From NCBI GenBank assembly GCA_029866965.1, contig CP123444.1, positions 62,001 to 126,000 on the forward strand: a DNA stretch of 64,000 nucleotides, given 5' to 3'. The first letter of the stretch is position 1. Each line of letters begins with the position of its first letter. Below are positions 52,893-55,838 of this stretch, piece by piece. The notes beneath the pieces were generated by a model. That model had not been told where the DNA came from. It saw nothing but the letters and a program-made list of their open reading frames with translations, and searched no databases. The stretch comes from Flavobacteriaceae bacterium YJPT1-3. Lineage in GTDB: Bacteria; Bacteroidota; Bacteroidia; Flavobacteriales; Flavobacteriaceae. The position numbers and the translations under genes are program-made.

Positions 52893-53090
52893 TTACGCTC
52901 CTACCAATTCGAAGTATCCAGTGATAACTCGACTAAATACAGTATCGACTCCCCAGATCGCCAGGGAAAAAATAATGGAAAAGACCGCCACCGTTAACGT
53001 CAGACGTTGCGCTTCAGGAAGCGGAGTCCAGGTAACGTGGTTTCTCAATTCATTGTACGATTCTGATATGTAATTGATAAATCCAGCCAT
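52893..53090 (-). CDS. secE: Preprotein translocase subunit SecE
   Basis: 65 aa from ATG 53090 (MAGFINYISESYNELRNHVTWTP). An amphipathic N-terminal helix is followed by one membrane segment (LTVAVFSIIFSLAIWGVDTVF), the minimal SecE. It clamps SecY in the Sec translocon. The longer open frame runs back towards the tRNA-Trp gene and is not used. Located between tRNA-Trp and nusG as in many bacteria. Confidence 0.96.
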   Translation of the reverse strand: MAGFINYISESYNELRNHVTWTPLPEAQRLTLTVAVFSIIFSLAIWGVDTVFSRVITGYFELVGA

Positions 53091-53228
53091 AATTTTGTAT
53101 TCGCAACAGGATTTCCTGTTTTCTATTAGTTTTAAACTTCCAGAGTTTACCCTTAAGAAGTTCATACTGCCAGACTTTGAAGTGATCCCCTTGCGTTAAG
53201 GACATGCTTCTAGTCTCATTATTTGTTG

Positions 53229-53301
53229 CACGGGTTGAGAGGCTCGAACTCCCGACACCTGGTTTTGGAGACCAGTGCTCTACCAACTGAGCTAAACCCG
53301 T
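53229..53301 (-). tRNA. tRNA-Trp (CCA)
   Basis: 73 nt, anticodon CCA in loop CTCCAAA. Acceptor stem ACGGGTT/AACCCGT, T-loop GTTCGAG. Discriminator G; CCA is not encoded. Between tuf and secE. Confidence 0.97.
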
Positions 53302-53383
53302 AATTAAAATAAAAGAAAGCAGATCTTGTCGACGCTACACTTTTATTCTCTACCCGGTCTCCCTGTACGCCCAGTTCTGAGCT

Positions 53384-53401
53384 CTGCCTGCCGGCAGGCA
53401 G
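53384..53401. repeat. GC-rich palindrome CTGCCTGCCGGCAGGCAG
   Basis: Perfect 18-bp palindrome in the tuf/tRNA-Trp spacer, followed by small hairpins AACCC-GGGTT and CTACC-GGTAG. The same element is inserted twice in tRNA-Thr-tail repeats near 54.9 kb. Confidence 0.85.
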
Positions 53402-53490
53402 GTAAACCCGCAGATGGGTTAGCAGTGATTTTGCATCCCTACCAACAGGTAGCATAAAGCAAAACTACAGTCACCCCTTTTTTATAAGTC

Positions 53491-53521
53491 AAGGCGTCCC
53501 GCGACAAGCGCAGGACACCTT
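53491..53521 (-). other. Hairpin after tuf
   Basis: AAGGTGTCCTGCG pairs with CGCGGGACGCCTT on the minus strand (13 bp, two wobbles), 23 bp after the tuf stop codon. No T-run follows, so it may be an mRNA-stabilising or processing structure and not a terminator. Confidence 0.5.
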
Positions 53522-53543
53522 AAACCTATAAGCTAAACTTTAA

Positions 53544-54731
53544 TTAGTCTAGAATTTCAGTCACCTGACCAGCTCCAACAGTACGACCACCTTCACGGAT
53601 TGCGAAACGAAGTCCTACGTTCAAAGCGATAGGCTGAATAAGATCTACAGTGATCGTTAGGTTATCACCTGGCATTACCATCTCTACTCCATCAGGAAGT
53701 ACAATGTTACCCGTTACGTCAGTAGTACGTACGTAGAACTGAGGACGGTAATTGTTGTGGAATGGAGTGTGACGTCCACCTTCTTCTTTTTTCAAGATAT
53801 AAACCTCCGCTTTAAACTTAGCGTGTGGCTTCACAGAACCTGGCTTACAGATTACCATACCACGTGAAATTTGAGATTTCTCGATACCTCTCAAAAGGAT
53901 ACCTACGTTATCTCCAGCTTCACCGCGGTCTAATATTTTACGGAACATCTCAACTCCAGTAATGGTAGAAGTCAATTTCTCAGCACCCATACCGATGATC
54001 TCAACAGGATCTCCAGTGTTAGCAACACCAGTCTCGATACGACCAGTAGCTACAGTACCACGTCCAGTAATTGAGAATACATCCTCCACTGGCATCAAGA
54101 AGTCTTTCTCGACATCACGCTTAGGAAGCTCGATCCAGTTATCAACAGCATCCATCAATTCCATTACAGTGTCCACCCATTTTTGCTCACCGTTCAATGC
54201 ACCAAGTGCAGAACCAGCAATTACAGGCCCGTTGTCTCCATCATACTCGTAGAAAGAAAGCAATTCTCTGATTTCCATCTCAACAAGCTCAAGAAGCTCT
54301 TCGTCATCAACCATATCCACTTTGTTCATGAATACAACGATACGTGGAATACCTACCTGACGTCCAAGAAGGATGTGCTCACGAGTCTGAGGCATAGGAC
54401 CATCAGTTGCAGCAACCACAAGAATAGCACCGTCCATTTGAGCGGCACCAGTTACCATGTTCTTTACGTAGTCAGCGTGACCTGGACAGTCAACGTGTGC
54501 GTAGTGACGATTAGCGGTTTGATACTCTACGTGAGAGGTATTAATAGTAATACCACGCTCTTTTTCTTCCGGTGCGTTGTCGATAGAGTCAAAGCTTCTC
54601 AATTCAGAAAGTCCTGCGTTAGCAAGAACTGTAGTAATTGCAGCAGTAAGAGTAGTTTTACCGTGATCTACGTGACCAATGGTACCGATGTTCAAGTGTG
54701 GTTTCGAACGATCAAAAGTTTCCTTTGCCAT
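53544..54731 (-). CDS. tuf: Elongation factor Tu
   Basis: 395 aa. Delivers aminoacyl-tRNA to the ribosome. GTPase motifs [15 protein letters not shown] (G1), [12 protein letters not shown] (G3) and [17 protein letters not shown] (G4) are intact; domain II starts with [22 protein letters not shown] and domain III ends [13 protein letters not shown]. It is preceded by four tRNA genes and followed by tRNA-Trp, secE and nusG, the conserved tufB-type neighbourhood. The start is AT-rich (TTAAATCATGGC-like). Confidence 0.98.
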
Positions 54732-54826
54732 GATTTAATTTATTTTAATCTAGTTATATATTAGTGTTACCCTTAAATTCTTCACCCGCAGGTACTCCAT
54801 CAGGCTTTCGAATTGTTTCTTTTATT

Positions 54827-55050
54827 GAGCCAACGACGGGAATTGAACCCCTGCCTGCCGGCAGGCAGGCGTGACCCCGGTCACGGCATTTCGCGACACG
54901 ATGATCAACTCATTAACTCCAATCTTTCAAATATCTTTGAGCCAACGACGGGAATTGAACCCCTGCCTGCCGGCAGGCAGGCGTGACCCCGGTCACGGCT
55001 TTTCGCGAAACGATGGTCAACTCATCAACTCCAATCTTTCAAATATCTTT
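54827..55050 (-). repeat. Two 112-bp direct repeats starting with the tRNA-Thr 3' tail
   Basis: Units 54827-54938 and 54939-55050 are 112 bp each and nearly identical. Each begins (plus strand) with the 24 bp that form the 3' end of the adjacent tRNA-Thr (GGGTTCAATTCCCGTCGTTGG plus TC on the minus strand is split over the T-arm and acceptor). Then a 20-bp palindromic element is inserted exactly between GAACCC and GTGACC of the tRNA sequence. A hairpin GTGACC-CC-GGTCAC and, in the second unit, a TTTCGCGAAA palindrome (55001-55010) follow. The intact tRNA-Thr gene continues the series at 55051. Confidence 0.9.
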
Positions 55051-55051
55051 G

Positions 55052-55123
55052 AGCCAACGACGGGAATTGAACCCGTGACCTCTTCCTTACCAAGGAAACG
55101 CTCTACCCCTGAGCTACGTCGGC
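55052..55123 (-). tRNA. tRNA-Thr (GGT)
   Basis: 72 nt, anticodon GGT in loop TTGGTAA. Acceptor GCCGACG/CGTTGGC, T-loop GTTCAAT. CCA not encoded. Last tRNA before tuf; its 3' end is duplicated twice downstream. Confidence 0.97.
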
Positions 55124-55137
55124 TTATGATTTTATAC

Positions 55138-55151
55138 GCTTTCGCGAAAGC
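55138..55151. repeat. Palindromic repeat GCTTTCGCGAAAGC, copy 7
   Basis: Perfect copy (16 bp with outer C/G) between tRNA-Gly and tRNA-Thr(GGT), 14 bp upstream of the tRNA-Thr 5' end. Confidence 0.9.
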
Positions 55152-55224
55152 GCACTAGCCAAAGGCATCTACTCATTTCCTCGCTCACTTAGGAAGACGA
55201 AGATCTCTGCCGAAGCAGATTTAG

Positions 55225-55297
55225 AGCGGGAGACCGGGTTCGAACCGGCGACATTCAGCTTGGAAGGCTGACGCTCTACCAACTGAGCTACTCCCGC
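55225..55297 (-). tRNA. tRNA-Gly (TCC)
   Basis: 73 nt, anticodon TCC in loop CTTCCAA. Acceptor GCGGGAG/CTCCCGC, T-loop GTTCGAA. CCA not encoded. Confidence 0.97.
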
Positions 55298-55382
55298 ATT
55301 TATAATTAAGTACGACTTAATTAATGGTAAACAATATGTCAATACTATTCAAAGCCATTTCTAATAATCACCCCACTTTCAC

Positions 55383-55488
55383 TCGGTGATTCTTAATCTC
55401 CTGATTCAGGCTGGATTACCTCGCCTCCGCTCGGTGATCCCTCATCTCCTGATTCGGGTTGGATTACCTCGCCTCCGCTCGGTGATCC
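55383..55488. repeat. 48-bp direct repeats between tRNA-Tyr and tRNA-Gly
   Basis: Two full copies (55383, 55431) and a 10-bp start of a third (55479) of a unit beginning TCGGTGAT and containing CTCCTGATTC and GGATTACCTCGCCTCCGC. Copies differ at a few positions. Part of a 274-bp spacer without a gene. Confidence 0.85.
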
Positions 55489-55569
55489 GTGAAGGGGGAC
55501 CCTTCACTACATTTTTCAGATCTCCGACTTACAAAAGCAAGCTTTTGACTCCTGCTCCCTGAAAAATGT
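55489..55569. repeat. Cluster of inverted repeats before tRNA-Tyr 3' end
   Basis: GTGAAGGG-GGA-CCCTTCAC (55489-55507), then ACATTTTTCAG (55509-55519) paired with CTGAAAAATGT (55559-55569), with an inner CAAAAGC-AA-GCTTTTG (55532-55547). Three nested or adjacent perfect inverted repeats in 81 bp. Confidence 0.8.
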
Positions 55570-55571
55570 TG

Positions 55572-55653
55572 TGGGGAGAGCAGGATTCGAACCTGCGAAG
55601 TTAAAAACAACTGAGTTACAGTCAGTCCTCGTTGGCCGCTTGAGTATCTCCCC
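55572..55653 (-). tRNA. tRNA-Tyr (GTA)
   Basis: 82 nt with a long variable arm, anticodon GTA in loop CTGTAAC. Acceptor GGGGAGA/TCTCCCC, T-loop GTTCGAA. CCA not encoded. Confidence 0.96.
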
Positions 55654-55684
55654 AAAATAAAGCTTTCAATATGTCAATCTAAAG

Positions 55685-55758
55685 AGCCGATGGAGGGACT
55701 CGAACCCACGACCTGCTGATTACAAATCAGCTGCTCTAGCCAGCTGAGCTACATCGGC
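55685..55758 (-). tRNA. tRNA-Thr (TGT)
   Basis: 74 nt, anticodon TGT in loop TTTGTAA. Acceptor GCCGATG/CATCGGC, T-loop GTTCGAG. First tRNA of the four-tRNA series. CCA not encoded. Confidence 0.97.
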
Positions 55759-55838
55759 CTTTAAAACTCCTCTACCGCTCTGTAAAACTCAGCATTTAAG
55801 CCTGTTTTTTGAGGTTTTGACCACCCCCATCGAGACCA

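Follow-up and report, generated by a model that had tools for sequence, protein, structure and literature searches.

Downstream of tRNA-Thr(GGT), on the minus strand of a 64,000-nt stretch of the genome of Flavobacteriaceae bacterium YJPT1-3 (hereafter the window), lie two 112-bp direct repeats (54825-54936 and 54937-55048), as an earlier note made from the sequence alone had claimed; they are 96% identical. Along the transcript, each unit is composed of a spacer of ~53 nt, the hairpin CGTGACC-CC-GGTCACG, the palindrome CCTGCCTGCCGGCAGGCAGG (hereafter PAL) and the last 23 nt of tRNA-Thr, or 24 nt counting a shared C (Table 1). The sequences that flank PAL are contiguous in the intact tRNA-Thr. 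The 20-bp insertion between adjacent tRNA hexamers described in the earlier note was recovered, its frame CTGCC...CAGGC being the same insertion shifted by one base. We assign the break to the T-stem, at 51|52 in standard numbering (50|51 by plain count). The further hairpin reported for each unit is likewise present, as a 7-bp stem flush with PAL; the tRNA sequence immediately 5' of the break forms one arm, and an inverted copy of that sequence the other. The two units differ at four positions, all of them in the spacer (54888, 54897, 54904 and 54914), and are duplicates with PAL already inside. Judging from the minus-strand gene order, the units presumably lie within a tRNA-tuf transcript; the downstream gene was named tuf (EF-Tu) by recognition of its translation. 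Rfam searches of window positions 53000-55800 returned tRNAs alone above the cut-off and no other known RNA family.

Table 1 Features around tRNA-Thr(GGT), tuf and tRNA-Trp in the window
Feature	Position	Strand	Basis or remark
Intact tRNA-Trp(CCA)	53228..53301	-	ARAGORN
AGCTCAG-AA-CTGGGC, remaining tRNA-Trp head copy with imperfect inverted copy, flush hairpin	53369..53383	-	Form as in tRNA-Asn and tRNA-Ile head copies
PAL, 19 of 20 bases, splitting tRNA-Trp head copy near 9|10	53384..53402	.	
Displaced tRNA-Trp head, outer part (tRNA positions 2-9)	53403..53410	-	
Downstream gene, presumably tuf (EF-Tu)	53544..54731	-	ORF list
Displaced tRNA-Thr tail, distal copy, then tuf leader	54827..54849	-	
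PAL, distal unit (unit 1)	54850..54869	.	
Flush hairpin CGTGACC-CC-GGTCACG, distal unit	54870..54885	-	
Spacer, distal unit	54886..54938	-	Holds the 4 inter-unit differences
Displaced tRNA-Thr tail, tRNA-proximal copy	54939..54961	-	Identical to the last 23 nt of the tRNA
PAL, perfect 20-bp palindrome, tRNA-proximal unit (unit 2)	54962..54981	.	
7-bp hairpin CGTGACC-CC-GGTCACG flush with PAL, unit 2	54982..54997	-	
Spacer, tRNA to first displaced tail	54998..55050	-	
Intact tRNA-Thr(GGT)	55051..55123	-	ARAGORN; Rfam tRNA 69.3 bits

Tandem units downstream of a tRNA gene, each starting with the tRNA 3' end, are familiar from E. coli tyrT, and the window holds the same type of feature in that each tandem unit contains a tRNA 3' end. 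No palindrome insertion or GIY-YIG unit is known in the tyrT repeats.

A displaced end of another tRNA lies across tuf from the Thr units, downstream of tuf and upstream of tRNA-Trp. This stub is a tRNA-Trp head copy split by PAL, and its hairpin, flush with PAL, is made of one strand of the tRNA D-stem and an imperfect inverted copy. Although short (8 nt + 7 nt of tRNA sequence), the copy was accepted because it has the same form as the tRNA-Ile and tRNA-Asn heads of relatives.

Other palindromes and repeats occur nearby. The extra palindrome TTTCGCGAAA that the earlier note had singled out is present in unit 2, but it is a common palindrome here: CTTTCGCGAAAG is found at eight places in the window (e.g. 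55139-55150). Elsewhere in the genome, PAL itself sits inside imperfect CTTTCGCGAAAG copies (L003, L006 and L013). Between tRNA-Gly and tRNA-Tyr (55367-55486), there are three 24-nt repeats at a spacing of 48 nt (ATYACC...CTCGGTGAT).

Split tRNA copies elsewhere in the genome

In the frame used by the earlier note, the 20-mer occurs seven times in the genome and its backward-read control not once, so that its recurrence is not due to chance. The PAL core CCTGCCGGCAGG is found 13 times in the 3.16-Mb genome, and the full perfect 20-mer 11 times. Downstream of tRNA-Gly(GCC) is a pair of 108-bp units (two tails) with PAL at the equivalent point of the T-stem. Upstream of tRNA-Arg(TCG) is a pair of 301-bp units in which a head copy is split by PAL between the D-loop and the D-stem; the order is PAL-split head and GIY-YIG gene, both twice, followed by the intact tRNA. 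Exact 18-nt partial tRNA copies were sought near 30 of 40 tRNA hits, a scan that misses copies broken into shorter pieces (as found at Met, Leu, Asn and Trp). Six copies were returned, at Thr, Gly and Arg only, and all six carry PAL. The copies at Met, Leu and Asn hold palindromes other than PAL. In the Met units, imperfect CCTGCC...GGCAGG hairpins break the tRNA head copy at two points, one near 9|10 and one near 21|22; the Leu copy likewise has two splits; and at Asn, parts of the arms of a tail copy are replaced by TCCCG...CGGGA hairpins.

Occupied and empty tRNA loci

A survey of tRNA-Thr(GGT) that was unbiased for PAL covered 120 genomes from 120 genera. The locus was found in 112 of these, and 90 places were read, one per genome, a tail copy being called within the next 420 nt, or up to the end of the stretch, on the basis of at most 5 mismatches in 22 or a shared 12-mer. 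Within those limits, 87 of the 90 genomes have no tail copy. The three occupied loci are those of this genome (two units, PAL), G018 (one unit, PAL) and G143 (two units), where the slot is filled by another palindrome, CCTGCCCGCCCTAGGCGGG; the joint is the same in all three. Comparison of the locus among relatives, as proposed in the earlier note, thus gave states of zero, one and two units, but no palindrome-free copy (3/3 carry one). The tRNA-Gly(GCC) locus was located in 40 of 70 genomes and read at 30 places; tail copies are present in this genome only, 29 of the 30 places have none, and the other ten matches are the neighbouring tRNA-Leu. Given 87/90 empty Thr and 29/30 empty Gly places, the empty state is normal and the gain of units sporadic. 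By eye, the Thr spacers of different genera show no clear alignment, which leaves common descent of the units unproven. Among 60 relatives considered, none was of the same genus as this bacterium.

At the tRNA-linked loci examined here, displaced tails lie downstream and displaced heads upstream of the intact tRNA. The exceptions are confined to one locus (L322), where one unit lies between two tRNA-Val genes, making its side ambiguous, and a decayed piece (9-28) lies downstream. Isolated tRNA matches of 8-10 nt elsewhere in GIY-YIG loci were taken as chance.

PAL in relatives

PAL is present in 56 of 299 genomes of the family, at 0 to 19 copies each, and splits displaced ends of Thr, Gly, Ala, Ile, Asn, Val and Arg tRNAs in relatives. 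The tRNA-Ile, Asn and Val copies are heads, split at 9|10 and located upstream of the tRNA, and two tail copies (L116 and L119) are preceded by a GIY-YIG gene. A scan of public genomes for PAL directly adjoining GAACCC yielded 36 stretches, which by eye comprise 18 tRNA stubs (L076, L077, L080-L083, L086-L089, L091, L095-L097, L103 and L106-L108) and 18 others. By type, the stubs are Thr(GGT) in seven cases, Gly(GCC) in four, Gly(TCC) in one, Ala in four and Pro-like in two; L080, at a contig end, and L089 belong to one genome. Hosts include Flavobacteriaceae, a Flavobacteriia MAG, Saprospiraceae, Lewinellaceae, Chitinophagaceae, Cyclobacteriaceae and a Cryomorphaceae MAG. The Pro-like pair (L076 and L086) comes from a Margulisbacterium, and its tails differ from the neighbouring tRNA-Pro. 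The Thr and Gly stubs among the 36 stretches have the inverted hairpin, perfect or imperfect. Because GAACCC was fixed beside PAL, the scan is no argument for the 51|52 joint, the position of which follows from the sites in this genome and the survey of Thr loci.

Under a strict test (at least 20 nt matched, with 7 on each side), 24 of 142 unique PAL sites split a tRNA, compared with 0, 1 and 1 in swapped-flank controls; short heads of Ile, Asn and Val tRNAs escape this test, and the 142 sites include loci selected for GAACCC beside PAL. The remaining 118 fail it, i.e. PAL lies mostly outside tRNAs, so we do not claim specificity of PAL for tRNAs, only its recurrence in displaced tRNA ends. 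These counts bear out the earlier view of PAL as a dispersed palindrome of mobile type, with 13 cores here, a presence in 56/299 family genomes and insertions into sequences whose uninterrupted form exists (24/142). The earlier note had named the element's presence at unrelated boundaries as a finding that would refute it, and such boundaries do occur, 118/142 sites falling outside the strict test. Of 99 unique PAL sites, 15 are at hairpins; when the points were shifted, 20 draws gave 6.65 on average and 10 at most. The excess lies in flush hairpins, mainly tRNA copies, with spanning hairpins at 5 versus 4.25. Since it is modest and consists mostly of tRNA copies, general targeting of hairpins by PAL is not claimed.

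PAL also occurs within larger repeats. In three genomes (L005, L134 and L173), it is found at one point of a larger repeat (GTGTGTA, PAL, CTTGCAAAGTTAAGTGC), where it seems to travel within a bigger element. In G270 (L153-L158), a dispersed GTCATTCAGA...GAATCT repeat is split by PAL at several points, with no obvious target duplication by eye. Viral contigs contributed 33 stretches with PAL, two of them of tRNA type by eye (L351, variable loop; L358, head copy). In the first, a viral tRNA-Met called by ARAGORN (L351, 2239-2330) has PAL inserted in its variable region. Three of the viral loci (L347, L354 and L355) belong to one 29.5-kb contig, where PAL is found in several places and some of these have matching contexts in inverted orientation. 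A viral origin of the window units was considered and rejected; despite PAL in 33 viral stretches, the units show no sign of being phage-borne.

GIY-YIG genes beside tRNA genes

A GIY-YIG search of this genome returned nine matches, leaving seven small genes after frames of 600 and 487 codons were omitted. Six of the seven adjoin a tRNA (Met twice, Leu, Arg twice and Asn, at four loci), and the seventh (L277) has no tRNA in its locus. All four tRNA-linked loci contain a palindrome-split tRNA copy, and the gene lies between the tRNA and the fragment. The ORF of the tRNA-Arg units (MYFVYVIES...) matches PF01541 at 51.4 bits. No GIY-YIG match was found in the Thr and Trp units of the window, and no GIY-YIG gene was seen in Thr or Gly units of any genome examined. 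Among PAL loci searched by homology, such a gene is present in three places only, namely Arg of this genome, L116 and L119.

PF01541 matches occur in all 60 relatives' genomes searched, UvrC-like ones included. Four of the 29 best GIY-YIG loci of relatives lie near a tRNA (L281, L293, L299 and L303). Ten tandem pairs and ten further single genes were then picked by eye among the matches listed; an intact tRNA accompanies 7/10 of the pairs and 1/10 of the single genes. As L309 is the same place as L303, there are 11 distinct places in relatives (L281, L293, L299, L309, L310, L311, L313, L315, L316, L318 and L322). With the four of this genome, this gives 15 tRNA-linked GIY-YIG places, two of which (Arg here and L318) were already known to hold PAL. 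In 15/15, the displaced pieces are interrupted by hairpins or have arms replaced by them. Folding of 21 inserted segments, chosen by eye, was compared with that of segments of equal length from the same locus; 20 rank in the best 5%, the lone exception being one Leu segment (0.088). At tRNA-Arg(TCT) in two genera (L310 and L315), gene-less tandem head units of 78-80 nt lie upstream and GIY-YIG tail units downstream, an arrangement that ties gene-less units, like those of the window, to coding ones.

Two further loci deserve description. At L322 (G031), a gene-less unit separates two intact tRNA-Val(TAC) genes, a GIY-YIG tail unit follows downstream, and one displaced copy there bears a hairpin in its anticodon arm and another in its T-loop. 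At L311 (893-969, minus strand), a palindrome-carrying displaced piece of tRNA-Val is called a selenocysteine tRNA by ARAGORN, which is likely an annotation artefact.

Discussion

Mobile DNA classically enters genomes at tRNA genes. We propose, with a probability of about 0.6, that very short insertion units with tRNA genes as their targets left the Thr units behind as displaced 3' ends of tRNA-Thr, the displaced end being interrupted by a palindrome and the unit duplicated in tandem. Such a unit would land inside a tRNA gene and bring the missing part of the tRNA with it, so that a complete tRNA would be re-formed on one side and the end split from it would come to lie on the far side, with tails downstream and heads upstream. 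A small GIY-YIG endonuclease is encoded in some units (tandem units of ~300-360 bp), and others, like those of the window, contain only a spacer of 50-60 nt. A GC-rich palindromic repeat breaks the displaced end at an arm joint (here T-stem 51|52), and the unit as a whole is present in tandem duplicate. The units share an anatomy and a geometry, recur at many tRNAs, hold different palindromes at one joint, and occur in coding and gene-less forms of the same build.

How such units arise is suggested by a phage enzyme. The GIY-YIG enzyme SegB makes its cuts within tRNA genes, and tandem amplification of a tRNA segment depends on it (PMC13096335). It cuts better at RAWTSGAAC, although the motif is not strictly required (PMC13096335), and we read this motif as the complement of the T-loop region. 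The recurring GIY-YIG gene, taken together with these properties of SegB, suggests that insertion and tandem duplication are both driven by a GIY-YIG nuclease which cuts the tRNA gene. The same kind of nuclease may have made the gene-less units of the window, which would then be derivatives or satellites of coding units. As in the phage case, the gene adjoins a tRNA; SegB differs in that it is a phage enzyme and a full-length tRNA is amplified, and the available text of that report describes no displaced, palindrome-bearing tRNA ends (PMC13096335). The units of the window, moreover, are without the gene. Also against this reading, a GIY-YIG gene is present in just three places among the PAL loci searched by homology, and few of the best GIY-YIG loci of relatives adjoin a tRNA (4/29).

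The palindrome possibly serves to keep the displaced end from re-cutting, from recombination with the intact tRNA or from misfolding. In a single predicted structure of the window array, the 5' acceptor strand of the tRNA pairs with the last tail copy, and interference of a displaced tail with tRNA folding is conceivable. Since most PAL sites lie outside tRNAs (118/142), palindrome insertion may be a separate process. Different palindromes at one joint in different genera point to repeated capture or selection and not to descent from one event. The earlier note had supposed that PAL landed once in a tail copy before the unit was duplicated. Duplication with PAL inside stands; a single chance landing does not, because the same joint is used at tRNA-Gly here and at tRNA-Thr in other genera (once by another palindrome), because mirror-image heads exist, and because some units contain a GIY-YIG gene.

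The alternative that survives best, which we nonetheless consider unlikely, is that replication slippage duplicated the tRNA tail and that a mobile palindrome then inserted independently, surviving only in the non-functional copy, which is the view of the earlier note in a more general form. PAL is indeed dispersed, its insertions in an intact essential tRNA would be lost, and the tail together with downstream sequence looks duplicated at two loci (L095 and L119). However, all six exact partial copies in the genome carry PAL, and all three occupied loci of the Thr survey carry a palindrome. One joint is used in different genera, and the GIY-YIG genes between tRNA and fragment are left unexplained.

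It is less probable still, by a clear margin, that the displaced end and its two hairpins form a functional RNA kept for a role in cis, for instance in processing the 3' end of the tRNA-tuf transcript, in protecting that transcript, or in mimicking a tRNA. All four differences between the window's Thr units fall in the spacer, and the Thr tails read equal or nearly equal the tail of the local tRNA; yet in G143, two of four differences between units, counted by eye, are in hairpins. The transcript folds far better than shuffled sequences (z -6.81), which is probably due to the palindromes themselves, and the Rfam match of the units to mascRNA is below threshold (23.4 bits, cut-off 42.5, E 0.11). 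Moreover, Thr units occur in only 3/90 genomes, units are also found at tRNAs without tuf behind them, and mirror-image head copies exist.

REP/RAYT repeats are dispersed short palindromes, as is PAL. A REP-type nature of PAL, with a Y1 (RAYT/TnpA) transposase as its mobiliser, is hardly credible: PF01797 genes do occur in some PAL-rich genomes, but this genome has no Y1 transposase match (PF01797: 0) despite 11 perfect PAL copies, and PF01797 shows no clear link with PAL, occurring in 10 of 18 genomes with at least three PAL copies (hand count) and in 116/299 overall.

The displaced-end reading, to which we return, invites comparison with other elements near tRNA genes. Mobile GC-rich palindromes reportedly flank tRNA genes in Neurospora. 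The RHE of sponge mitochondria are also short, scattered hairpins, sometimes in tandem with another hairpin and some near tRNA genes; they are mitochondrial, and the text available of that work reports none at a fixed arm joint within a displaced tRNA end (PMC2800124). The geometry is that of the tDNA islands found by Islander, where the incoming element makes good the tRNA gene that its integration has split and the former end is left as the far boundary (PMC4383910). As far as that account describes them, the islands likewise lie between an intact tRNA and its split-off end, with 3' fragments downstream, 5' fragments upstream and tandem arrays (PMC4383910). They differ in scale and content, the tandem units here being ~80-360 bp, with palindromes interrupting the fragment, and those of the window being without an integrase. 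Candidates that lack a tyrosine integrase or are shorter than 2 kb are dropped by Islander (PMC4383910). The 112-bp units of the window are too short for a tyrosine integrase gene and fall outside both limits, so that such short units would be discarded. Displaced tRNA fragments and GIY-YIG genes beside tRNAs are known, and palindrome-split displaced tRNA ends are apparently undescribed: word searches of the open-access literature found no title or abstract on them, and a search with four spellings found no PAL sequence in print there.

More tentatively, and with the odds somewhat against so broad a claim, these loci may represent a class of ultra-short, integrase-free 'mini-islands' (~80-360 bp) mobilised by small GIY-YIG nucleases. 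Host palindromes would be captured at arm joints as a scar that blocks re-cutting, gene-less members like those around tuf would spread as satellites of the coding ones, and the class would span Bacteroidota and perhaps more distant phyla.

Conclusions

Units of ~100 bp with a displaced tRNA end would be overlooked by island searches based on integrases and kilobase lengths, such as Islander. They offer a testable model of how a nuclease alone could insert beside an essential gene without killing it, of how short palindromic repeats without coding capacity spread, and of how tRNA-like fragments arrive in leaders such as that of tuf. A palindrome at one fixed joint across lineages provides a direct handle on the chemistry of insertion.
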